A DNA stretch of 64,000 bases from Clostridiaceae bacterium BL-3 (GTDB lineage Bacteria > Bacillota > Clostridia > Clostridiales > Clostridiaceae), in contig CADDXC010000002.1 in assembly GCA_902809985.1 (NCBI GenBank), positions 248,001 to 312,000 on the forward strand, read 5' to 3'. This document shows, piece by piece, positions 6,356 to 56,868 of the stretch (its first letter is position 1; every line of letters begins with the position of its first letter). The notes beneath the pieces were generated by a model. The model was not told the DNA's origin and ran no database searches. It worked only from the letters and a program-made list of their open reading frames with translations. The position numbers were made by a program, and so were the translations under genes.

Positions 6356-7129
6356 ATGGGAATTGCCATAGTAACCGGTGCTTCAAGTGGGCTTGGCAGA
6401 GAGTTTGTTTATCAGATTGCCTCTAAAGAGAAAAATATCAGTGAAATTTGGGTCATTGCCAGACGGGAAGAACGCCTTAAGGAATTGACTGCCAGAGTTG
6501 ACGTTCCAATTGAGCTTTTGCCCCTTGACCTTATTAAAAGAGAAAGTATTGATTATTTTATAGAATATTTGAAAGCTCAAAAACCACAGGTGGATATACT
6601 AGTAAATGCAGCTGGATTTGGTAAAATTGGAAGTTATAGTGATATAAGTCTTCTGGACAGTGACAATATGATAGATTTGAATTGTCGTGCTGCCGTCGAT
6701 ATGACTGTAGCGGTGCTGCCATACATGAAAAGGAGAAGTCGTATTATTGAAATATGCTCAACAGCTGCATTTCAGCCATTTCAATACCTGAATGTATATG
6801 CTGCTACCAAGGCATTTCTTTATAGGTACAGCAGGGCTCTGAGAATAGAATTACTGCCGAGAGGCATTCATGTGACAGCAGTCTGCCCTTACTGGATTAA
6901 AGATACTGAATTTATTCCCAAAGCCAAACATAGCAGGGATGGTAGAAAAATAAGAAATTTTATATTTGCAGGTAGGGCAAAAAATGTGGCAGCTATAGCA
7001 CTTAATGACAGCAGGATTGGGCTGCCGGTATCTACTCCGGGACCAGTATGTTTTATTCACAGAATAGTGGCCAAATTTATTCCCCATGAGATCATGATAT
7101 GGTTGTGGGAGTTGATAAGAAGACTATAG
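6356..7129 (+). CDS. Short-chain dehydrogenase/reductase (SDR)
   Basis: This 257-aa protein is a classical SDR with the nucleotide-binding TGASSGLG (7-14), the NAAG motif (84-87) and the catalytic triad Ser135, Tyr148, Lys152 (YAATK). The C-terminal third has the hydrophobic stretch seen in SDRs that act on lipid-like or ketone substrates. GAGGGG precedes the ATG. It probably shares a transcript with the HxlR gene and ends at a strong terminator. The substrate is unknown. Confidence 0.85.
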   Translation: MGIAIVTGASSGLGREFVYQIASKEKNISEIWVIARREERLKELTARVDVPIELLPLDLIKRESIDYFIEYLKAQKPQVDILVNAAGFGKIGSYSDISLLDSDNMIDLNCRAAVDMTVAVLPYMKRRSRIIEICSTAAFQPFQYLNVYAATKAFLYRYSRALRIELLPRGIHVTAVCPYWIKDTEFIPKAKHSRDGRKIRNFIFAGRAKNVAAIALNDSRIGLPVSTPGPVCFIHRIVAKFIPHEIMIWLWELIRRL

Positions 7130-7153
7130 ATAATTGGATAAAAATAGTGATTG

Positions 7154-7192
7154 ATCAAAACAGCAGATTCTATTAGAATCTGCTGTTTTGAT
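7154..7192. terminator. Bidirectional terminator, 17-bp perfect stem
   Basis: ATCAAAACAGCAGATTC (7154-7170), loop TATTA, then the perfect complement (7176-7192). The stem ends in TTTTG on both strands and separates the convergent SDR and nitroreductase genes. Confidence 0.85.
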
Positions 7193-7203
7193 ACCAAATG
7201 ATG

Positions 7204-7878
7204 TTACTTGATCCATTGAACTAAATCTGTCAAGGACGGCCTGGTTTTGGGCCTTGGTTCCTTTTTCCTGTATCCAAAAGCTACCATACAGGAAACTCCA
7301 AATTTTTCTCTGTTCAGTAACCCCTCTTTTGCCAGAATTTCTTCTACCTGATCTCTGTTAAATCCTTCTATAGGACAAGAGTCAATTCCTATAAGGGCAG
7401 CTGCTGTCATCATATTTCCAAGAGCTATATAAGTTTGCTTGCATCCCCAGTCAAACATGGCCCTGTCACTTTCCAGTAATTTAAAATCGTTTTTCTGGAA
7501 GTTTTCATATCCCCTTTTTCTTTGATCAATTACATTTTGAGGAAGTTTTTGGACATCTTCCATGATATGTGATATATATTTGGAGTTGTATATCAGATCT
7601 GGTGTTTTTCTCGATAGTATTACTATAAAGTGACTTGCATCAGGGAGTTTGAGTTTTGCACCCCAGCTTACAGGAGATATTTTTTGCCTGATTTCTCTAT
7701 TTTGAAGTATTAAAAATTTCCATGGTATGAACCCAAAAGAACTGGGGGATAATTTGCCTACTTCAAGTATATAATTGAAATCGTCATCTGAAACCTTTTT
7801 TGTACCATCAAATTCTTTGCAAGCGTGTCTGAATTTATATGCTTTTAATACCTGTTCTTTAATATTTTCTTTATCCAT
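7204..7878 (-). CDS. Nitroreductase-family NAD(P)H-dependent oxidoreductase
   Basis: This is a 224-aa FMN-dependent nitroreductase-like protein of the NfsB type. It shows the N-terminal RHACKEFDGTKKVSDDDF, the FMN-binding LSPSSFGFIPWKFLIL segment, and the C-terminal GIDSCPIEGFNRDQVEEIL plus a VAFGYRKKEPRPK tail. Such enzymes reduce quinones, nitro compounds or related electrophiles. The ATG at 7878 is preferred because AAGGTGA precedes it; a GTG three codons upstream is inside the RBS. It is divergent from a MarR-family gene whose operator lies in the shared promoter region. Confidence 0.85.
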   Translation of the reverse strand: MDKENIKEQVLKAYKFRHACKEFDGTKKVSDDDFNYILEVGKLSPSSFGFIPWKFLILQNREIRQKISPVSWGAKLKLPDASHFIVILSRKTPDLIYNSKYISHIMEDVQKLPQNVIDQRKRGYENFQKNDFKLLESDRAMFDWGCKQTYIALGNMMTAAALIGIDSCPIEGFNRDQVEEILAKEGLLNREKFGVSCMVAFGYRKKEPRPKTRPSLTDLVQWIK

Positions 7879-8014
7879 AATGATCACCTTTTTTATATAA
7901 ATTTAATGCATTCTATATATTTATTATACTTTATTTTATTAGCAAGAAAATAAGATTTTGAATATTAAGAAAATATAATTGTAATATTAAACAATTTATA
8001 ACTGTAGAACAATA

Positions 8015-8046
8015 TAGTTGAACATTCAACTAAAAAATGATAAACT
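8015..8046 (+). promoter_or_regulatory. MarR promoter with overlapping 18-bp palindromic operator
   Basis: TAGTTGAACATTCAACTA (8015-8032) is a perfect 8-bp inverted repeat around CA. It covers the -35 box TTGAAC (8018-8023), which is followed after 17 bp by TAAACT (8041-8046). An operator sitting on the -35 box just upstream of a MarR gene indicates autorepression. Confidence 0.65.
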
Positions 8047-8081
8047 GATTATAGTGAAAACTTCAATTGTATTTATGAGAG

Positions 8082-8540
8082 GTGAAAGATATAACAAATT
8101 TATATAGCTGTATATTGAGAGAGATAGGAGCTTTGTCACGTTGTATTCATTTTATGAGTGATGTTAAATTCAAGGAGATAAAATTGCAAAAAGGCCAATT
8201 TATGTTTCTTACCAGGATATGTGAGAATCCTGGAATTAATCAGGTGGATTTATCAAATCTTTTGAAAGTAGATAAAACAACTACTACAAAAGCCATACAA
8301 AAACTCGTTGAAGCTGATTATATAGATAGAAAAAGAGACGATGTGGATAAAAGAATGTGGAGACTTTATCCAAGTAAAAGGGCATTGGATATATATTCTT
8401 TCATTATTGATGAAGAAAATAAATATATCCAAATTTGTTTCTGCAATCTTGATGAAAGAGAAAAAAAGTTAGCCTATAAATTAGTAAAAAAAATGAGGGA
8501 AAATGTTGAGAGTGTCTGGGAAAAATCAAAAAATTTTTAA
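8082..8540 (+). CDS. MarR-family transcriptional regulator
   Basis: This is a MarR-type winged-helix regulator of about 150 aa with the HTH NPGINQVDLSNLLKVDKTTTTKAIQKLVEADYI and the wing IDRKRDDVDKRMWRLYPS. MarR proteins are dimeric repressors relieved by small ligands or oxidation. The start is uncertain: GTG at 8082 lies inside its own likely RBS (GAGAGGTGA), and no ATG is in frame before the conserved region. ATA at 8091 has better spacing and may be the true start. The GNAT gene follows after 11 bp and is probably co-transcribed; the nitroreductase is divergent. Confidence 0.85.
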   Translation: MKDITNLYSCILREIGALSRCIHFMSDVKFKEIKLQKGQFMFLTRICENPGINQVDLSNLLKVDKTTTTKAIQKLVEADYIDRKRDDVDKRMWRLYPSKRALDIYSFIIDEENKYIQICFCNLDEREKKLAYKLVKKMRENVESVWEKSKNF

Positions 8541-8551
8541 GGAGTGGTATT

Positions 8552-9067
8552 ATGATAAGAAAGGCAAATGTGAGGGATATAGAGGATATAATGAAAATTA
8601 TAAAACGGACCGTTGAGGAAATGCATACCTACAATAATACTCAATGGGATGAAAATTATCCAAGGAAAGAGGATTTTATAAATGACATTCAAAAAGAGAG
8701 TTTATTTGTGTTGGAAAGAGAAAGGCATTTAGCTGGTTTTGTATGTATTAATAAAGTGGAACCAGCTGAATATGGTGATTTAAATTGGACATTAAATGAA
8801 GAGGCTGCGATTGTTCACAGAATGGCTGTTAACTCAAATTATAGAAGAATTGGCATTGGCACTGAATTACTGAAATTAGCTGAGAGACTTGCACTCAAAA
8901 GCAATGTCAGATATTTAAAAACTGATACATATTCAGTAAATACAAAGATGAATTCATTATTTAAAAAGTGTGATTACAAATTTATTGGGGAGATTAATTT
9001 TTTAGGAAAGGAAAAGCCATTTAACTGTTATGAAAAGATATTAGATCCGGATAAGTATGTTATTTAA
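8552..9067 (+). CDS. GNAT-family N-acetyltransferase
   Basis: This is a 171-aa acetyltransferase with the GNAT core: N-terminal IRKANVRDIEDIMKII, the acyl-CoA-binding MAVNSNYRRIGIGTELLK (motif A, RxxGxG) and the C-terminal NSLFKKCDYKFIGEI. AAGGAGTGG precedes the ATG. It follows the MarR gene closely and precedes aroD, so the three may form one transcript. The acceptor substrate is unknown. Confidence 0.82.
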   Translation: MIRKANVRDIEDIMKIIKRTVEEMHTYNNTQWDENYPRKEDFINDIQKESLFVLERERHLAGFVCINKVEPAEYGDLNWTLNEEAAIVHRMAVNSNYRRIGIGTELLKLAERLALKSNVRYLKTDTYSVNTKMNSLFKKCDYKFIGEINFLGKEKPFNCYEKILDPDKYVI

Positions 9068-29227: not shown

Positions 29228-31354
29228 ATGAATTTATTTCAAACTATATTCACTGGTTCAAAACAGGCTTTGGCAGCAGCTGAGGGCATAGTTAAACAAG
29301 CTGTGGATGAAAAGGGTAAAGATTATAAAGTGGCCTTCCCGGATACTGCATATTCACTTCCGGTAATTTTTGCAGCTACAGGAAAAAAGATAACCAATGT
29401 GGGGGAATTAGAGGGGGCTCTGGACATAGTCAGAAGTCTTATAGTAGAAGAGGAAACTCTTGATAAAGCTCTGAATTCGGGTCTTGCAACGGCCGTAGCA
29501 GCTGAGATAATAGAAGCAGCTAAATATGTATTGTCTGATGCTCCTTATACTGAGCCCTGTGTTGGATTTATATCCGATCCAATAATACGATCTCTTGGAG
29601 TACCGCTTGTTACAGGAGATATACCAGGTGTAGCAGTTGTGTTGGGAGAATGTCCGGACGTTGATACTGCATCTAAGATCATAAAAGATTATCAGTCAAA
29701 AGGACTGCTTACGTTTTTGGTGGGAAAGGTAATAGATCAGGCTGTAGAGGGAAAAGTTAAGATGGGACTTGACCTTAGAGTTATTCCTCTTGGATACGAT
29801 GTTACTTCCGTAATACATGTTGTAACTGTAGCTATAAGAGCTGGACTCATATTTGGAGGAATCAAAGGCGGTGCGCTTCAGGAAATGCTGCAGTATACTG
29901 CGGAGAGGGTGCCTGCTTTTGTAAATGCTTTTGGACCATTGAGTGAACTTGTGGTTTCTGCCGGAGCAGGGGCTATAGCTCTTGGATTCCCTGTAATAAC
30001 TGATCAGGATGTAACGGAAGTACCTACACTTTTATTGACTCAAAAGGATTATGATAAATTCGTCAAGACCTCTTTAGAAGCTAGAAAAATAAAGATAAAG
30101 ATAACTGAGATTCCAATTCCAGTTGCTTTTGCTGCAGCTTTTGAAGGTGAAAGAATAAGGAAGAATGACATGCTTGCAGAATTTGGAGGGGGCAAAACTG
30201 AAGCCTGGGAATTGGTAATGAATGTGGATCCTGGAGAAATTGAGGATCATAAAATAGAGCTTATAGGTCCGGATATTGACACTATAGACAAAGCACCTGG
30301 AAGAATGCCTCTTGGAATGCTTGTGAAGGTAGCAGGAGCTAATATGCAGAAAGACTTTGAACCGGTACTTGAAAGGAGACTTCATTATTTTCTAAATTAT
30401 ATAGAGGGAGTAATGCATGTAGGACAGAGAAATCTGACCTGGGTTAGAATAGGCAAGGAAGCTTATGATAAAGGGTTTAGACTGAAGCATTTTGGAGAAG
30501 TGATATATGCTAAGATGTTGGATGAATTTGGTTCTGTTGTAGACAAATGTGAAATTATTATAACTACAGATCCAGCTAAAACTTCAGAATTAAAGGAAAA
30601 ATATGCTATGCCAAGATATACAGAAAGGGATGCTAGACTTGTATCTCTGGTAGATGAAAAAGTTGATACTTTTTATTCCTGTAATCTATGTCAGTCCTTT
30701 GCACCTGCACATGTATGTATAATAACACCTGAAAGACTTGGACTCTGCGGAGCAGTTTCCTGGCTGGATGCTAAAGCTACACTTGAATTAAATCCTACAG
30801 GACCATGTCAGGCGGTACCTAAGGAAGGTGTAATTGATGAAAATGCAGGCATCTGGGAGAAAGTCAATGAAACTGTTTCAAAAATATCTCAAGGTGCTGT
30901 AAACAATGTTACCTTGTATAGTATTTTACAGGATCCTATGACTTCCTGTGGATGTTTTGAATGTATCACGGGTATAATGCCGGAGGCCAATGGTGTTGTA
31001 ATAGTAAACAGAGAATATGCTTCCATGACTCCCCTTGGAATGACCTTTGGTGAACTGGCATCCATGACCGGCGGCGGAGTTCAGACTCCTGGATTCATGG
31101 GACACGGCAGACCTTTTATATCTTCAAAGAAGTTCATGAAAGCCGAGGGTGGAATCGCCAGAATAGTCTGGATGCCTAAGGAGTTAAAGGATTTTGTAGC
31201 AGAAAAATTGAATAAGACAGCTAAAGAGCTCTATGATATAGATAATTTTTCAGATATGATATGTGATGAAACCATTGCTACTGAATCTGAAGATGTGATG
31301 AAATTCCTGGAGGAAAAGGGGCATCCTGCACTTACTATGGATCCTATAATGTAG
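29228..31354 (+). CDS. acsB: Acetyl-CoA synthase AcsB
   Basis: AcsB joins CO, the corrinoid-bound methyl group and CoA to acetyl-CoA at the Ni-Ni-[4Fe-4S] A-cluster. In this 708-aa protein the cluster cysteines are Cys485, Cys488, Cys497 and Cys507, and the distal-nickel CGC motif is Cys574-Gly-Cys576. All six are offset by exactly 21 residues from the Moorella numbering (506, 509, 518, 528, 595, 597), so the protein is collinear with a shorter N-terminus. The CO-tunnel N-terminal domain is present. AGGAGG precedes the ATG. Confidence 0.97.
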   Translation: MNLFQTIFTGSKQALAAAEGIVKQAVDEKGKDYKVAFPDTAYSLPVIFAATGKKITNVGELEGALDIVRSLIVEEETLDKALNSGLATAVAAEIIEAAKYVLSDAPYTEPCVGFISDPIIRSLGVPLVTGDIPGVAVVLGECPDVDTASKIIKDYQSKGLLTFLVGKVIDQAVEGKVKMGLDLRVIPLGYDVTSVIHVVTVAIRAGLIFGGIKGGALQEMLQYTAERVPAFVNAFGPLSELVVSAGAGAIALGFPVITDQDVTEVPTLLLTQKDYDKFVKTSLEARKIKIKITEIPIPVAFAAAFEGERIRKNDMLAEFGGGKTEAWELVMNVDPGEIEDHKIELIGPDIDTIDKAPGRMPLGMLVKVAGANMQKDFEPVLERRLHYFLNYIEGVMHVGQRNLTWVRIGKEAYDKGFRLKHFGEVIYAKMLDEFGSVVDKCEIIITTDPAKTSELKEKYAMPRYTERDARLVSLVDEKVDTFYSCNLCQSFAPAHVCIITPERLGLCGAVSWLDAKATLELNPTGPCQAVPKEGVIDENAGIWEKVNETVSKISQGAVNNVTLYSILQDPMTSCGCFECITGIMPEANGVVIVNREYASMTPLGMTFGELASMTGGGVQTPGFMGHGRPFISSKKFMKAEGGIARIVWMPKELKDFVAEKLNKTAKELYDIDNFSDMICDETIATESEDVMKFLEEKGHPALTMDPIM

Positions 31355-50196: not shown

Positions 50197-51981
50197 TTAT
50201 ACTACGGTATCCTTATCGGCAGTTTTAACATTTTTTAAATCCCTTAGCCATACTTTAGTACTCTCGTAGATTATAACTACAAGCAGCAGCAGAAGTATTA
50301 TGGAAAGTACAACTAGAAGTGTTTCGCCCTTAGGTATATAGTTACCAAATATATTTGAGAAGGAAGCTGTAATGGTTATTATGGATATAGCTATCATCGG
50401 GATTACGGTTATCATGGCATATTTCTGTTTTTTCATCTTTATAATTATAGTAGTACCAATGGCAAAAGCTATAGCGGCCAGCATTTGATTTGCAGTACCG
50501 AACAGCGGCCAGATTGTTGATATATTGCCGGTGTAGAGAAGATATCCCCAGGTAAATGACATAAGAACGCTAAATAATACTATATTTGCCCAGGAGTTTT
50601 TCTTTGCAAAAGGCTTGTATATCTTTCCAAAAAGATCCTGGAGTAAGTATCTGCCTACTCTGGTACCTGCATCTATAGTTGTTAGAATAAACAACGCTTC
50701 AAACATTATACAGAAATGATACCAGTAGGACATTAATCCTTCCATACCCGGTATTTTGTAAAATACGTAAGACATACCTACTGCCAGTGATACAGCGCCT
50801 CCGGGTCTTCCAGCTAGTTGCTCTCCTACCATTTGTGACAGCATAGGCAGTTCCTTTGGAATCATTCCAAGTTTATCAAATACGGCCGGTGCGGAGTTTA
50901 TAGCAAAGTAGTCGGCGGTTGGAAGACATGTTGCAGCTATCAGTGCCATCAGTGCTATAAAGGATTCTATGAGCATTGAACCAAAGCCTATAGGAAGTAT
51001 GTCCCTTTCATTTGAAATAAGTTTAGGTGTAGTACCGGAGCCTATAAGTGAGTGGAATCCCGACAATGCACCACAGGCTATGGTTATGAATAGGAATGGA
51101 AATACCTTGCCTGGTACAATAGGTCCCCCTCCGCTTATGAATTTAGTGAGTGCCGGCATCTGAAGAGTAGGTCTTACAAATATAATTCCTATTACCAGTA
51201 ATGCTATAACGCCGAGTTTCATATAAGTACTCAGATAATCTCTCGGCAGCAGTAGGAGCCATACAGGTAAAACAGCAGCACAGAAACCGTATACAGCTAA
51301 AATAAGTGACATTTGTTTAGTATTGAAAGTTAAAAAAGGAGCTAAGGCTGTGTGCTGGATATAAGGTCCTAATGCAACTCCCAGTATGATGAGTGCCATA
51401 CCAATAATAGTGGCTTCAGCTATTTTACCAGGTCTTAAGAATCTAAGATAAATACCTATGAAAATTGCTACTGGAATGGTAAAGCCAACTGTAAAAGTAC
51501 CCCAGGGACTGTTGTAAAGTGAATTGACAACAGGAAGCCCAAGGCCTGCCATACTTATTATCAATATGAAAATGACTGCTATAGAAGTTACAAATCCCAT
51601 TCTCTCCCCTAAATTTTTTCTGGCAATTTCAGCAATGGATTCACCATCTTGCCTAACTGAGGCAAATAGGATTACCATGTCGTGGACAGCACCTGCAAAT
51701 ACACCACCGATTAAAATCCACAGTGTACCTGGCAGATAACCGAATTGAGCTGCTAAAACTGGTCCAATTAATGGTCCTGCACCTGCTATTGCGGCAAAAT
51801 GATGTCCAAGCAATATCCACTTGTTAGTGGGAACGTAATCATGACCATCCTCAAATTTTTTAGATGGCACTTCTCTTGTCTCATCCAAGACCAGAACTTT
51901 AGCGGCTATAAATGAACCGTAAAATCTATAGCCTAAGACGAGTACAAGAGCTCCTATGATTACCAGTACCAGTGAGTTCAT
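50197..51981 (-). CDS. CstA-family carbon starvation/pyruvate transporter, copy 1
   Basis: This 594-aa polytopic membrane protein of the CstA/BtsT family has about 15-16 hydrophobic segments and the family signatures YVPTNKWILLGHHFAAIAGAGP, HDMVILFASVRQDG, GFHSLIGSGTTPKLI and MFEALFILTTIDAGTR. E. coli homologues (CstA, BtsT) take up pyruvate or peptides; pyruvate is the likeliest substrate here given the LytS/LytR pair nearby. AGGGGG precedes the ATG. It is a tandem duplicate of the next gene upstream and has its own promoter region. Confidence 0.92.
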   Translation of the reverse strand: MNSLVLVIIGALVLVLGYRFYGSFIAAKVLVLDETREVPSKKFEDGHDYVPTNKWILLGHHFAAIAGAGPLIGPVLAAQFGYLPGTLWILIGGVFAGAVHDMVILFASVRQDGESIAEIARKNLGERMGFVTSIAVIFILIISMAGLGLPVVNSLYNSPWGTFTVGFTIPVAIFIGIYLRFLRPGKIAEATIIGMALIILGVALGPYIQHTALAPFLTFNTKQMSLILAVYGFCAAVLPVWLLLLPRDYLSTYMKLGVIALLVIGIIFVRPTLQMPALTKFISGGGPIVPGKVFPFLFITIACGALSGFHSLIGSGTTPKLISNERDILPIGFGSMLIESFIALMALIAATCLPTADYFAINSAPAVFDKLGMIPKELPMLSQMVGEQLAGRPGGAVSLAVGMSYVFYKIPGMEGLMSYWYHFCIMFEALFILTTIDAGTRVGRYLLQDLFGKIYKPFAKKNSWANIVLFSVLMSFTWGYLLYTGNISTIWPLFGTANQMLAAIAFAIGTTIIIKMKKQKYAMITVIPMIAISIITITASFSNIFGNYIPKGETLLVVLSIILLLLLVVIIYESTKVWLRDLKNVKTADKDTVV

Positions 51982-52025: not shown

Positions 52026-52054
52026 ATTATAACATGAATTTTCAATCAATTCAG
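52026..52054 (-). promoter_or_regulatory. Possible promoter of cstA copy 1
   Basis: On the minus strand CTGAAT (52049-52054), 17 bp, TATAAT (52026-52031). There is no LytTR double site here, unlike upstream of copy 2. Confidence 0.4.
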
Positions 52055-52161
52055 CTAATATGGGGTGAAATGACAAAAAAGATATATGAACGGTATTAAT
52101 TCCAATGTAAATGATATATGAAAACATCAGCTGCATAGAATTGAGAATTAAGATTATTTAT

Positions 52162-52197
52162 AAAAAAGGTTGTCCCACAACAATTTTTGGGGCAACC
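52162..52197 (-). terminator. Terminator of cstA copy 2
   Basis: On the minus strand GGTTGCCCC (52189-52197) pairs with GGGACAACC (52168-52176, one G-U), followed by six T. It separates the two tandem transporter genes, so they are independent units. Confidence 0.85.
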
Positions 52198-52231: not shown

Positions 52232-54022
52232 TTAAACGGCGTTATTTTCTCTAACTTTATCAAATTTTCCGGATTTTAAATCTGAAATCCAGTGTCTGAT
52301 GCTTTCATAGAGTATAACTACTAGTATAACTATAAGCACGAAGGATAATACTGTAAGTAAAGTTTTACCATTTGGAATATAGTTTCCTGTTATATTTTCA
52401 ATAGATGCTGTTAAAGTAGCTATACTTATAAAGGTCATAGGCAATACTGTAAGAGGCATGTATTTTCTCTTGCCCATTCTTATGAGTACTGAAGTACCTA
52501 TGGCAAAGGCTATAGCTGCCAGACTCTGGTTGGCTACACCAAATAGAGGCCAGATAGTTGATATATTACCGGTGTAGAGAAGGTATCCCCAGGCAAATGA
52601 CATAATAAAACTAAAGAATATTATGTTAAACCACGAATCTTTCTTTGCAAGTGGTTTGTAAATCTTACCTACAAGATCCTGAATTAGATATCTGCCTATT
52701 CTGGTACCTGAATCTATAGTTGTTAAAATAAATAGTGCTTCAAACATTATGCAGAAATGATACCAGTAAGACATTAATCCTTTCATGCCCGGTATTTTAT
52801 AAAATACATAAGACATACCTACTGCCAGGGATACACTTCCGCCTGGTCTTCCAGCTAGTTGCTCTCCTACCATTTGTGAAAGCATAGGCAGTTCTTTTGG
52901 AATCATTCCAAGTTTTGCAAATACTGCTGGTGCAGAGTTTATAGCAAAGTAATCAGCAGTTGGAAGACATGTTGCAGCTATTAGAGCCATCAATGCTATA
53001 AAAGATTCTATAAGCATAGAGCCGTATCCAATAGGGAGTATGTCCCTCTCATTTGAAATAAGTTTAGGAGTAGTACCAGAACCTATAAGTGAGTGGAATC
53101 CTGACAGTGCACCGCAGGCTATAGTTATGAATACGAACGGGAATACCTTACCCGGTACTATAGGTCCGCCTCCAGATACAAATTGAGTGACTGCTGGCAT
53201 ATTCAAAACCGGTCTAACTAGTATGATACCTACTACTAGAAGTGCTATAACACCAAGTTTCATATAAGTGCTTAGGTAATCTCTTGGAAGAAGCAGAAGC
53301 CATACAGGCAAAACAGCAGCACAAAAACCATAAATAGCTAGGATAAGAGACATCTGTTTAACGTTAAATGTCAAATATGGAGCTAAAGCTGTGTGCTGGA
53401 TATAAGGTCCTAACGCAACTCCCAATATTATAAGTGCCATACCGATAACGGTAGCTTCAGCTATCTTACCAGGTCTTATAAATTTAAGATAGATACCTAC
53501 AAAAATTGCTACTGGAATGGTAAAGCCAACTGTAAAAGTACCCCAGGGACTGTTGTAAAGTGAGTTCACTATTGGAAGACCAAGGCCTGCCATAGTAATT
53601 ATCAATATAAATATAACTGAAATTGATGTGATGAAACCCATTCTTTCGCCTAAATTTTTTCTCGCAATTTCGGCAATGGATTGTCCATCTTGTCTAACTG
53701 AAGCAAATAGAATTACCATGTCATGAACTCCACCAGCTAATACACCGCCGATTAAAATCCACAGCGTACCTGGCAGATAACCAAATTGGGCTGCTAAAAC
53801 TGGTCCAATTAATGGTCCTGCACCTGCTATTGCAGCAAAATGATGGCCTAATAATATCCACTTGTTAGTGGGAACGTAATCATGACCATCTTCAAATTTT
53901 TTAGATGGAACTTCCCTGGTCTCATCTAAAACTAATACTTTAGCTGCGATCCAGGAGCCGTAAAATCTGTAACCTAGAACTAATACAAGAGCACCTATAA
54001 TTACAAGTACTATTGAGTTCAT
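52232..54022 (-). CDS. CstA-family carbon starvation/pyruvate transporter, copy 2
   Basis: This 596-aa protein is nearly identical in most segments to copy 1, with the same family signatures (HDMVILFASVRQDG, GFHSLIGSGTTPK, TTIDSGTR); differences concentrate in the C-terminal quarter. I placed the start at the ATG at 54022 after AAAGGAGG; the frame is open 33 codons further, but that part spans the LytTR operator. It is divergent from the lytS-like gene, and the LytTR-type double site upstream implies control by that two-component pair, as BtsSR controls btsT in E. coli. Confidence 0.93.
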   Translation of the reverse strand: MNSIVLVIIGALVLVLGYRFYGSWIAAKVLVLDETREVPSKKFEDGHDYVPTNKWILLGHHFAAIAGAGPLIGPVLAAQFGYLPGTLWILIGGVLAGGVHDMVILFASVRQDGQSIAEIARKNLGERMGFITSISVIFILIITMAGLGLPIVNSLYNSPWGTFTVGFTIPVAIFVGIYLKFIRPGKIAEATVIGMALIILGVALGPYIQHTALAPYLTFNVKQMSLILAIYGFCAAVLPVWLLLLPRDYLSTYMKLGVIALLVVGIILVRPVLNMPAVTQFVSGGGPIVPGKVFPFVFITIACGALSGFHSLIGSGTTPKLISNERDILPIGYGSMLIESFIALMALIAATCLPTADYFAINSAPAVFAKLGMIPKELPMLSQMVGEQLAGRPGGSVSLAVGMSYVFYKIPGMKGLMSYWYHFCIMFEALFILTTIDSGTRIGRYLIQDLVGKIYKPLAKKDSWFNIIFFSFIMSFAWGYLLYTGNISTIWPLFGVANQSLAAIAFAIGTSVLIRMGKRKYMPLTVLPMTFISIATLTASIENITGNYIPNGKTLLTVLSFVLIVILVVILYESIRHWISDLKSGKFDKVRENNAV

Positions 54023-54392
54023 AAAACAACCTCCTTTAAGATTCAATAAATAAATACAATTAATGCTTAATGGTTTACATATAATACTTAATGGTTTACA
54101 TGTAGTGACTAATTGTTCCATGCATAATGATAGTATGAATCTATTAATTTTTCTATCTAAATTCTCCGAATTGATAAAAAAATATATTAAAGAGTCGAAA
54201 TAAAAGGTTAAGTGACATTTTTTAAAATGATATTTTTATTAGCTATAAGTTTAATTTTGTTATATAATTATATATAAATAATTTGTGTTTTGAACAAATA
54301 ATGCAGGAGATTGGACTTTGGCGCACTATAGGAACAAAAGTATTAGAGTTATGCTAGAAGTCGGCTAATGCAGTTTTTAGAGGTGGTAAATT
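54023..54392. other. Divergent control region cstA2 / LytS-type kinase
   Basis: This AT-rich region contains the LytTR double site near the cstA2 side and no convincing sigma-A promoter on the kinase side. An 18-codon ORF (ATG at 54301) without an RBS is probably meaningless. Confidence 0.5.
54066..54095 (-). promoter_or_regulatory. LytTR-type direct-repeat operator upstream of cstA copy 2
   Basis: On the minus strand ACCATTAAG (54087-54095), 12 bp, ACCATTAAG (54066-54074): two identical 9-mers with a 21-bp period. This is the arrangement and near-sequence of AgrA-class LytTR sites (ACAGTTAAG-N12-ACAGTTAAG). It lies 44 bp upstream of the cstA2 start codon and faces the LytTR regulator's operon. 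Confidence 0.75.
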
Positions 54393-56102
54393 TTGATATA
54401 TATTCAATTGCTTGAAAGTATGGCACTTATAGCTATATCTGCATATATATACAATCAATCTCATGTTTTAAAAAATATGATTAAAGGTGAGCTGAAATTC
54501 ATAGATAAAATTGCACTTATAGTGTTTTTCAGTTTATTGGGTATTATAGGTAATTATACTGGAGTAAATGTAGAGCCCTATGCTATGGATAATATCAGGC
54601 CAATGGGCTCTATACAAGCAGGATATATTGGACTGCACGATGCCATAGCAAATACAAGACCTATAGCAGCTATAGTAGCAGGGTATATAGGGGGGCCTGT
54701 ATTTGGAGTGATAGTTGGAATTATAGCAGGAACTCACAGATATTTTTTAGGAGGATTTACTGCCCTTTCCTGCGGAGTTGCCACTTTGGCAGAAGGATTG
54801 GTTGGAGGACTTATAAAAAAACTCTCGAAAGATGAAGGTTTTAATCTTAAGAAGGTATTTATTGGAGCAGTGGCGGCAGAATGCTGTCAGATGATTATAA
54901 TTTTAATACTTTCCAGACCGTTTAGTTCAGCCCTTAAATTAGTAGAGATTATAGCGGTACCTATGATTCTCATAAATTCTCTAGGTTCAGTAATTTTTAT
55001 AAATATAATAAAAAGTGCAAAGGAGGAATACGATAGAATTGGTGCTATAGAAGCACAGAGAGCTCTTAATATTACAAAAAAAACTGTAAATTATATGAGA
55101 AAGGGACTTAACGAAAAAACGGCAAAAAATGTTTCTGAAATAATATATGAGATGACCAATGCAGATGGCATATTTATAGGAGATAAAAATGGATTTTTAG
55201 CTTATTCTGGAATTAGTATACATGAAGAAAAATTAAGACAGGAGATACAAAAATACAATAAATCACCTGATTATAAAATTATTGAACTGCAATATGATGG
55301 TAAATCCATGTTTTTTGTTTGTGCTCCATTTAAAATACCCAACTCAGGTTTTGAAGGAGTGCTTGGATTGGGGGTGAGGTTGAAGAAAAATATTAATCCC
55401 TATTTCATACAATTTGGGAAAGAATTAAGTGATCTCCTATCCAACCAGATAGAACTATATAAATTGAATAAATTGGCTAAAGAGGCATCTACGGCAGAAT
55501 TTAGAGCTTTAAGAGCTCAGATAGAACCACACTTTTTGTTCAATGCACTAAATACCATAGCTTCTTTTTGCAGAACAAATCCTTCAAAGGCCAGAGAGCT
55601 TATAATAGATCTGTCCAATTATTTTAGGCAAACATTAAAAAGACAGGAGGATTTTGTTTATCTGAAAGATGAGATTGAATTTATTCAATCCTACCTTTCC
55701 ATTGAGACAGCTAGGTTTGGTAATAGATTACAGTTAATTATTGATATACCGGATGAAATGATGGATGAGAAAGTGCCTGTATTTGTGCTTCAGCCGATTG
55801 TGGAAAATGCTATAAAACACGGTATATTGCCTAAGCCGGAAGGCGGGAAAGTATACCTTGAGGCATTTTTTGAAAATGATGAAATACGTTTTTGTATAAC
55901 AGATACAGGAGTGGGGATGAATGAAGAAAGACTAAATGAAGTTTTAACTAAATGGCCGGGTATAGGGCTGAAAAATGTAAATGAGAGATTGAAATTGTTA
56001 TATGGAGAGGATCATGGGCTTGATATAAAAACATCTGTAAATAATGGAACCAAGATTAGTTTTTTAATATCGATGAGGGAGGTTTCATCAATAAATGGAT
56101 AA
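54393..56102 (+). CDS. LytS-type sensor histidine kinase
   Basis: This 569-aa membrane kinase has an N-terminal 5TMR-LYT sensor (about 1-210, with NYTGVNVEPYAMDNIRPMGSIQAGYIG and GPVFGVIVGIIAGTHRYFLGG), a GAF-like region (about 225-350), and a histidine kinase domain with phospho-acceptor His380 (IEPHFLFNALNTIASFC) and ATP-binding NAIKHGI and DTGVGMNEE. The start is TTG at 54393 behind AGAGGTGG. It belongs to the LytS/BtsS class, members of which sense pyruvate or related signals. Its 3' end overlaps the regulator gene by 8 bp. Confidence 0.92.
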   Translation: MIYIQLLESMALIAISAYIYNQSHVLKNMIKGELKFIDKIALIVFFSLLGIIGNYTGVNVEPYAMDNIRPMGSIQAGYIGLHDAIANTRPIAAIVAGYIGGPVFGVIVGIIAGTHRYFLGGFTALSCGVATLAEGLVGGLIKKLSKDEGFNLKKVFIGAVAAECCQMIIILILSRPFSSALKLVEIIAVPMILINSLGSVIFINIIKSAKEEYDRIGAIEAQRALNITKKTVNYMRKGLNEKTAKNVSEIIYEMTNADGIFIGDKNGFLAYSGISIHEEKLRQEIQKYNKSPDYKIIELQYDGKSMFFVCAPFKIPNSGFEGVLGLGVRLKKNINPYFIQFGKELSDLLSNQIELYKLNKLAKEASTAEFRALRAQIEPHFLFNALNTIASFCRTNPSKARELIIDLSNYFRQTLKRQEDFVYLKDEIEFIQSYLSIETARFGNRLQLIIDIPDEMMDEKVPVFVLQPIVENAIKHGILPKPEGGKVYLEAFFENDEIRFCITDTGVGMNEERLNEVLTKWPGIGLKNVNERLKLLYGEDHGLDIKTSVNNGTKISFLISMREVSSING

Positions 56103-56868
56103 ATTGAGATGTGTTATTGTAGAAGATGAGATACCTGCTGCAGAGGAGTTGAATTATATAATATCACAGCACAAGGGTATATCTGTAGAGGGAATTGCAT
56201 ATGATGGTAAAACTGGCATGGAACTTGTAAAATCAAAAAAACCTGATGCGGTATTTCTAGATATAAATATGCCGGTGGAAAATGGTATGGAAGTTGCTAA
56301 GAATATTAAAAGATTTGATGAACATGTTGATATAATCTTTGTCACTGCTTATGAGGAACATGCAGTAAAAGCTTTTGAGTTAAATGCGTTGGATTATGTC
56401 TTGAAACCCTTTGATGAAAAAAGGATAGCTATTACCATAGATAGGCTTATGCAGAAAAGTGATGACAAAAATACAGAGGACGGGAGAATATCAAAGGATA
56501 TTTTGAATGAATTGATAGATAAAATGGATAAGGAAAAAAAACTGGTTAAGAAAATACCTTGTGAGAGGCAGGGTAAGATAATACTGGTAAATGTAAAGGA
56601 TATCTACTACTGTTATATAAAAGATGATAAAACCTATGTGAAGGTTAAAAATGATAGTTACTTAGTGGGATATACTTTAGGTCAAATAGAAGAAAGAACT
56701 AATTTTTTTAGATCTCACAGGAGTTTTTTAGTGAATATAGATAATATTAGAGAATTGTATTCCTGGTTTAATGGCACATATAAATTAGTAATGGATGATG
56801 AGAAAAAATCTGAGATACCGATAAGCAGAAACAATGTAAAAAAATTAAAAAGTCTTTTGAAAATGTAG
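56095..56868 (+). CDS. LytTR-family response regulator
   Basis: This 257-aa regulator has a receiver domain with phospho-acceptor Asp56 (AVFLDINMP) and Lys in DYVLKPF, and a C-terminal LytTR DNA-binding domain (IPCERQGKIILVNVKDIYYC, FFRSHRSFLVNIDNIREL). It is translationally coupled to the kinase. LytTR domains bind paired direct repeats, which are present upstream of the divergent cstA copy 2. Confidence 0.93.
   Translation: MDKLRCVIVEDEIPAAEELNYIISQHKGISVEGIAYDGKTGMELVKSKKPDAVFLDINMPVENGMEVAKNIKRFDEHVDIIFVTAYEEHAVKAFELNALDYVLKPFDEKRIAITIDRLMQKSDDKNTEDGRISKDILNELIDKMDKEKKLVKKIPCERQGKIILVNVKDIYYCYIKDDKTYVKVKNDSYLVGYTLGQIEERTNFFRSHRSFLVNIDNIRELYSWFNGTYKLVMDDEKKSEIPISRNNVKKLKSLLKM

Follow-up and report, generated by a model that had tools for sequence, protein, structure and literature searches.

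The locus raises the question of which DNA element connects the two-component system LytS/LytR with the CstA-type transporter genes beside it. The window, i.e. the whole 64,000-nucleotide stretch of Clostridiaceae bacterium BL-3 DNA that was analysed, carries lytS and lytR and two cstA genes. lytS runs divergently from 54393, and the start of the divergent copy, cstA2, at 54022 is preceded by AGGAGG (Table 1). In the preliminary description, two identical boxes upstream of cstA2 were taken as the LytTR site that ties LytS/LytR to one CstA transporter, with pyruvate as the type of signal and an acetogen as the setting.

Table 1. Coordinates of genes and predicted regulatory elements in the window.
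Feature	Position	Strand	Basis
cstA1 (second copy)	50197-51981	-	PF02554, 711.9 bits
cstA1 predicted -10, TATAAT	52026-52031	-	exactly 33 bp after box 3, read directly
cstA1 predicted LytR array (boxes 52115-52107, 52094-52086, 52073-52065)	52065-52115	-	profile, box matrix
Intrinsic-terminator-like hairpin and T run 3' of cstA2	52161-52197	-	read by eye
cstA2 (copy divergent from lytS)	52232-54022	-	PF02554, 697 bits
Double box, 21-bp tandem units in predicted cstA2 leader	54066-54116	-	motif scan, conservation with G007
cstA2 predicted -10, TATCAT	54127-54132	-	exactly 33 bp after box 3
cstA2 predicted LytR array (boxes 54216-54208, 54195-54187, 54174-54166)	54166-54216	-	21-bp period, profile
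lytS, 5TM-LYT sensor kinase	54393-56102	+	Pfam 5TM-5TMR_LYT/His_kinase/HATPase_c
lytR, receiver-LytTR regulator	56095-56868	+	PF00072 86 bits, PF04397 102.6 bits

Both transporters pass the CstA family model and are 87.2% identical over 586 amino acids. Their scores for the E. coli CstA equivalog (600.4 and 581.7) miss its cut-off of 1188. LytR contains both the receiver and the LytTR domain of a LytTR-type response regulator, and scores 173.9 bits with the BtsR equivalog NF008677 (NCBIfam), below the cut-off of 246 bits. Matching structures were found for the LytS kinase domain (6swj) and the LytR receiver (2qv0); a sequence search returned no solved structure for CstA2. Since a terminator-like hairpin follows cstA2, cstA1 is probably on its own transcript. 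The frame is open from an ATG at 54121, but a CstA2 lengthened at its N-terminus to run through the repeats was rejected, since AGGAGG precedes 54022 and relatives have shorter stop-to-stop frames. The only Rfam match at gathering scores in the 64-kb window is a tRNA located elsewhere than the cstA2 leader, and RNA structure in this leader is not unusual (z -1.16). A search of the genome found two LytTR proteins, one of them LytR. The other adjoins a kinase of AgrC-type appearance, judged by its sequence, and was rejected as a binder on account of this neighbour. A CdhC domain of CODH/ACS at 30116-30580, which within the genus occurs in 6 of 13 genomes, supports the acetogen label.

The association of the three genes extends well beyond this strain. 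A LytR search of 118 genomes gave 44 matches at E<=1e-40, and in the DNA flanking 40 of those listed a divergent cstA beside lytS-lytR is usual in the closer relatives, several of which carry a second or third tandem cstA. Scanning genome contigs with the LytS alignment yielded 80 loci, among them those of C. luticellarii, C. ljungdahlii, C. ragsdalei, C. drakei, C. carboxidivorans, C. magnum and Caloramator, and reaching out to Desulfovibrio and Cohaesibacter. A CstA-like gene is present in the examined flank of 70 of the 80 loci, close and full-length in 29. Within the genus, 10 of 13 genomes have CstA and these same 10 have LytR, and G004, G010 and G011 have neither. At the stricter threshold of 1e-100, LytS is found in 9 of the 13; the tenth genome is the C. 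tyrobutyricum-like G012 with a two-piece match. In the C. tyrobutyricum locus L153, LytS (7001-8239) matches over residues 1-224 and 347-562 with an unmatched middle, and cstA and its array remain.

The sensor itself suggests a pyruvate-type signal, as had been proposed. LytS keeps three of the four BtsS pocket residues, R72, R99 and C110 corresponding to R89, R116 and C127, and has A130 in place of S113. Among 71 LytS sequences (the window and 70 of the 80 loci, the other 10 having been dropped for matches starting after residue 84), R, R and C are present in 71/71, and position 113 carries alanine in 53, serine in 17 and glycine in one. According to a remark in PMC10653868, changes of the Cys or Ser in the BtsS pocket might shift specificity, e.g. 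to lactate. In the light of this remark and of the alanine at position 113, pyruvate is the likely ligand of LytS and lactate a possible alternative. Pyruvate is carried by CstA in E. coli (PMC7730263), and by analogy it may also be the cargo of CstA1 and CstA2.

The two boxes in front of cstA2 are exactly as proposed, ACCATTAAG-N12-ACCATTAAG with a 21-bp period on the minus strand at 54066-54095 and zero mismatches. In the window only about 0.14 matches are expected even when up to 3 mismatches are allowed, and the exact pair occurs a single time in the 3,855,091-base (3.86-Mb) genome; the loose TGTAAACNATTNA gives 44 matches versus 51 expected. The identical core spans 15 bp, ATGTAAACCATTAAG, at 54066-54080 and 54087-54101. 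No further exact copy of this core exists in the genome, so the pair reflects tandem duplication of a 21-bp unit and not two 9-mers of independent origin. In register with these two, a third box of degenerate sequence lies at about 54108-54116. Two direct 9-bp repeats with a 12-bp gap have the layout of a LytTR site. As a LytTR activator site just upstream of a -35, however, the double box fails, as it lies beyond the predicted cstA2 -10 (54132-54127), at roughly +5 to +55. Read on the minus strand, each repeat core within 54066-54101 opens with ATGTAA, in which a stop codon comes directly after a start codon; inspection by eye showed no ribosome-binding site.

We learned a box motif from the 300 bp upstream of 36 cstA genes, two from the window and 34 from relatives. 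The two window regions and two from G007, the MAG L097 and the window's nearest relative, were held out, and near-identical species were down-weighted among the 32 training regions. In EM with 90 random-word starts, the 12 best runs share a CATTCA-type box near RCCATTCAC with period 21, its best weight being 0.98 among the allowed periods 20-22. When any period between 13 and 30 was allowed, 21 again came out of the top five of 40 runs (weight up to 0.9), and the log-likelihood is 151.9 versus 34.3, 48.4 and 51.1 on three resampled sets (best of 20 runs each). On extension to three boxes, the mean TATAAT match is highest when the hexamer follows box 3 by exactly 33 bp (3.82 of 6; next 3.37), the -10 having played no part in training the motif. 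At this gap a TATAAT match of at least 5/6 is present in 14/32 training regions, as against 6/32 at the runner-up among gaps of 10 to 49, and in 4/4 held-out regions. A good -10 at exactly 33 bp is missing in 18/32 training regions, some of which have one at 34 bp or after a fourth box. The 33-bp gap corresponds to 10 bp, a -35 and a 17-bp spacer, where the 10 bp between array and -35 presuppose this spacer length and a -35 positioned by distance. The passages of PMC6193735 on LRS operons describe a bias of LytTR repeats to 10 bp from the -35.

In the window, this motif predicts three-box arrays upstream of both cstA genes. Under the held-out box matrix the cstA1 triple scores 17.9 (P=0.00025 in 300 resampled bases), and the cstA2 array 8.6 as a pair and 9.9 as a triple (P=0.0125, likewise in 300 resampled bases). 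When the -10 at gap 33 is required in addition, 4000 resampled sequences contain no cstA1-like and two cstA2-like cases. Even with 3 mismatches allowed, the window has no strict pair RCCATTCAC-N12-RCCATTCAC; its arrays have thus diverged, and their recognition relies on profile and spacing. Compared with G007, the cstA2 array keeps 40/51 bases, no better than non-element sequence (102/132), and the stretch from array to -10 (54127-54165) keeps 36/39. Both predicted arrays have the features of LytTR activator sites, namely direct repeats, 12-bp gaps and a position about 10 bp before the presumed -35. Transcription of cstA2 is expected to start near 54120.

A profile built from 19 relatives' arrays, none from the window or G007, gave the same picture. 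These 19 were picked from the 32 by thinning near-identical species and keeping ungapped triples; one is shifted by one box. In the window the profile finds 54168-54218 (24.3 bits) and 52064-52117 (23.0 bits), the next match reaching 10.3. In a search of the whole genome, which scored 150 of 3829 first-look candidates (E-values from the profile are rough), the best two listed matches are those of cstA2 (24.3 bits, E=1.2e-4) and cstA1 (22.9 bits, E=3.5e-4), followed by one at 18.1. Nine other genus members have cstA, and in 9/9 the top listed place precedes such a gene, several of their arrays being themselves in the profile. The genus members that lack LytR and CstA still give weak best matches, with E-values of 0.0264, 0.0135 and, in G010, 0.00123. 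The 80 LytS loci contain 33 profile matches at E<=0.1, of which 31 are intergenic beside lytS, lytR or cstA, and 15 of these 31 are not in the profile. The remaining two, in L157 and in L090 at 11725, lie elsewhere or are ambiguous in position. Where the gene order is lytS-lytR-cstA, as in L111, L112 (Caloramator) and L113 (Thermobrachium), the match falls between lytR and cstA, which indicates that the array goes with cstA, though the L113 match has only E=0.055. C. luticellarii (L087) has three tandem cstA genes, and the copy farthest from lytS is without a recognisable array (triple score -0.7).

The predicted array in front of cstA1, at 22.9 bits in the genome search, speaks against the notion of a single controlled transporter; cstA1 and cstA2 are both predicted LytR targets. 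What stands of the proposed LytS/LytR-CstA link is the linkage of the genes, seen at 70/80 loci and in the same 10/13 genomes. The ACCATTAAG pair as the connecting DNA is not supported, as it lies beyond the predicted start and is not listed by the array profile. We therefore consider it very unlikely that LytR binds the double box and controls cstA2 alone through it, even though the 12-bp gap and the overall look resemble known LytTR sites, such as HdrR ACCTCTTAG-12-ACCACTTAA (PMC6193735), and the site is conserved in G007. In the held-out box matrix the double box scores 11.3 as a pair and 14.3 as a triple (P ~0.002), more than the upstream cstA2 array, although its copies are not independent. 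A -10 at the 33-bp gap after its last box would fall on the ribosome-binding site, with 0/6 matches, and none of the 100 listed window matches of the array profile, down to 3.3 bits, overlaps 54066-54116. Furthermore, the pair (up to 2 mismatches) is confined to the loci of the window's genome and G007 among the 215 loci examined, and the upstream array at cstA1 is the stronger one.

If the double box is not the activating site, it could simply be a neutral tandem duplication without function. Its occurrence in only two of the genomes examined is consistent with this idea, which we nevertheless find doubtful, because the window and G007 share 35/36 double-box bases compared with 102/132 in non-element sequence (P ~0.001). 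An alignment of the window, G007 and C. luticellarii shows the 21-bp unit three times (one degenerate), twice and once, respectively. From this conservation and its position, the double box is probably an operator, recently amplified and separate from the activating LytR site, for which CcpA, GssR and LytR feedback are candidate binders. In the feedback version, LytR would act at both places, activating from the upstream array and repressing or capping cstA2 from the double box. Box matrix and 21-bp period suit both elements, and the 35/36 conserved bases would be in keeping with such a role. On the other hand, part of the conserved core, ATGTAA, falls outside the LytTR box, the spacer lacks the T-richness of the arrays, and several relatives carry CG-centred or other elements at this position that by eye are not LytR boxes, so that we regard LytR feedback as unlikely. 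An extended variant, in which the leader operator is growing by one 21-bp unit at a time (the three related genomes have 1, 2 and 3 of them) and turning from a TGTAA-type element into LytTR-like boxes, with LytR acting twice through upstream activation and a leader cap, appears decidedly unlikely to us.

The double box may instead be a degenerate CcpA or GssR operator that was duplicated in this lineage, a reading that we regard as quite possible, if short of probable. Of 25 divergent cstA regions, 10 have TGWAAWCG no more than 130 bp from the start, whereas 300 resampled sets average 0.05, and this enrichment in the cstA leaders suggests a second regulator. Three of the ten matches precede the -10 and come from near-identical species, which weakens the argument; the other seven lie at or after the start region. 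For CcpA we take the cre consensus to be TGWAANCGNTNWCA. The window unit has three mismatches to it and no CG centre, and thus does not pass as a cre. Nor are strict cre sites enriched in the window's genome (4 versus 12 for the reversed control), and a strict cre regulon was rejected on these grounds. The best CcpA match scores 352.8 bits, below the curated cut-off of 442.35. The alternative crevar is an inverted TGTAAA/TTTACA (PMC5263246), while by eye the double box has TGTAAA twice in the same direction. In favour of GssR, this RpiR-type regulator binds upstream of the C. ljungdahlii cstA CLJU_c37350, and the transcript of this gene changes by log2 -3.33 after gssR deletion (PMC10458427). 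By gene counting, CLJU_c37350 would be the distal cstA copy. By eye, no element common to the cstA2 leader and the promoter of pyc, a GssR target, was seen.

The arrays, their spacing and genome ranking, the gene linkage, the pocket residues and the double-box conservation were computed, and from them we infer a module of the BtsSR-BtsT kind, which we consider rather probable. LytR would activate cstA2 and cstA1 through upstream three-box arrays, and the double box would be a separate operator. The phosphate on LytR would come from LytS, a membrane kinase whose pocket is of the pyruvate type. LytR is then the presumed binder of three direct boxes which, with their 21-bp period, would occupy one helix face some 10 bp ahead of a poor -35, and it would activate two separate promoters for the nearly identical CstA2 and CstA1, pyruvate serving as putative ligand and cargo. 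The double box may have arisen in the cstA2 leader as a second, lineage-specific operator by tandem amplification of the 21-bp unit, near where several relatives carry TGTAA-type elements. Another regulator bound there (CcpA or RpiR-type GssR) would probably damp or gate cstA2.

Such a module is ordinary in kind, and its predicted regulon comprises two promoters. For gas fermenters of the C. ljungdahlii group it nevertheless provides a concrete prediction, LytR acting on two cstA promoters, and it moves the candidate LytR site away from the double box, the obvious first target for mutagenesis. The series of one, two and three copies of the leader operator would represent a small natural experiment in promoter evolution. 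Our search of titles and abstracts of open-licence papers found none on LytS/LytR control of cstA in Clostridium. In C. ljungdahlii, cstA shares the chromosomal neighbourhood with pyruvate carboxylase seen here, and repression of a cstA by CRISPRi slows growth in gas fermentation (PMC10458427). In the window, pyc and a patatin-like gene are only about 200 bp apart; in the C. ljungdahlii locus L213, a gene of proC-like appearance (8091-8903) lies between the two. GssR belongs to the RpiR family, unlike the LytTR-type LytR.

In S. aureus, LytS/LytR controls a pyruvate transporter (PMC12632267), which is LrgAB; the predicted target here is a CstA-family protein. The sites of S. mutans HdrR/BrsR have the same 9-bp boxes, mostly 12-bp gaps and a position upstream of the -35; as far as PMC6193735 describes them, the LRS repeats serve autoregulation and bacteriocin genes, whereas three boxes and a transporter promoter are predicted here. 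A close parallel in layout of components is E. coli BtsS/BtsR-BtsT, which also combines a 5TM-LYT kinase, a LytTR regulator and a CstA-family target, with R72, R99 and C110 conserved (PMC10653868). LytS and LytR are 33% and 32% identical to BtsS and BtsR, respectively, with Ser113 replaced by Ala. In contrast to the E. coli system, the target genes here are adjacent to the regulatory genes, are present in two copies and are preceded by predicted three-box arrays.
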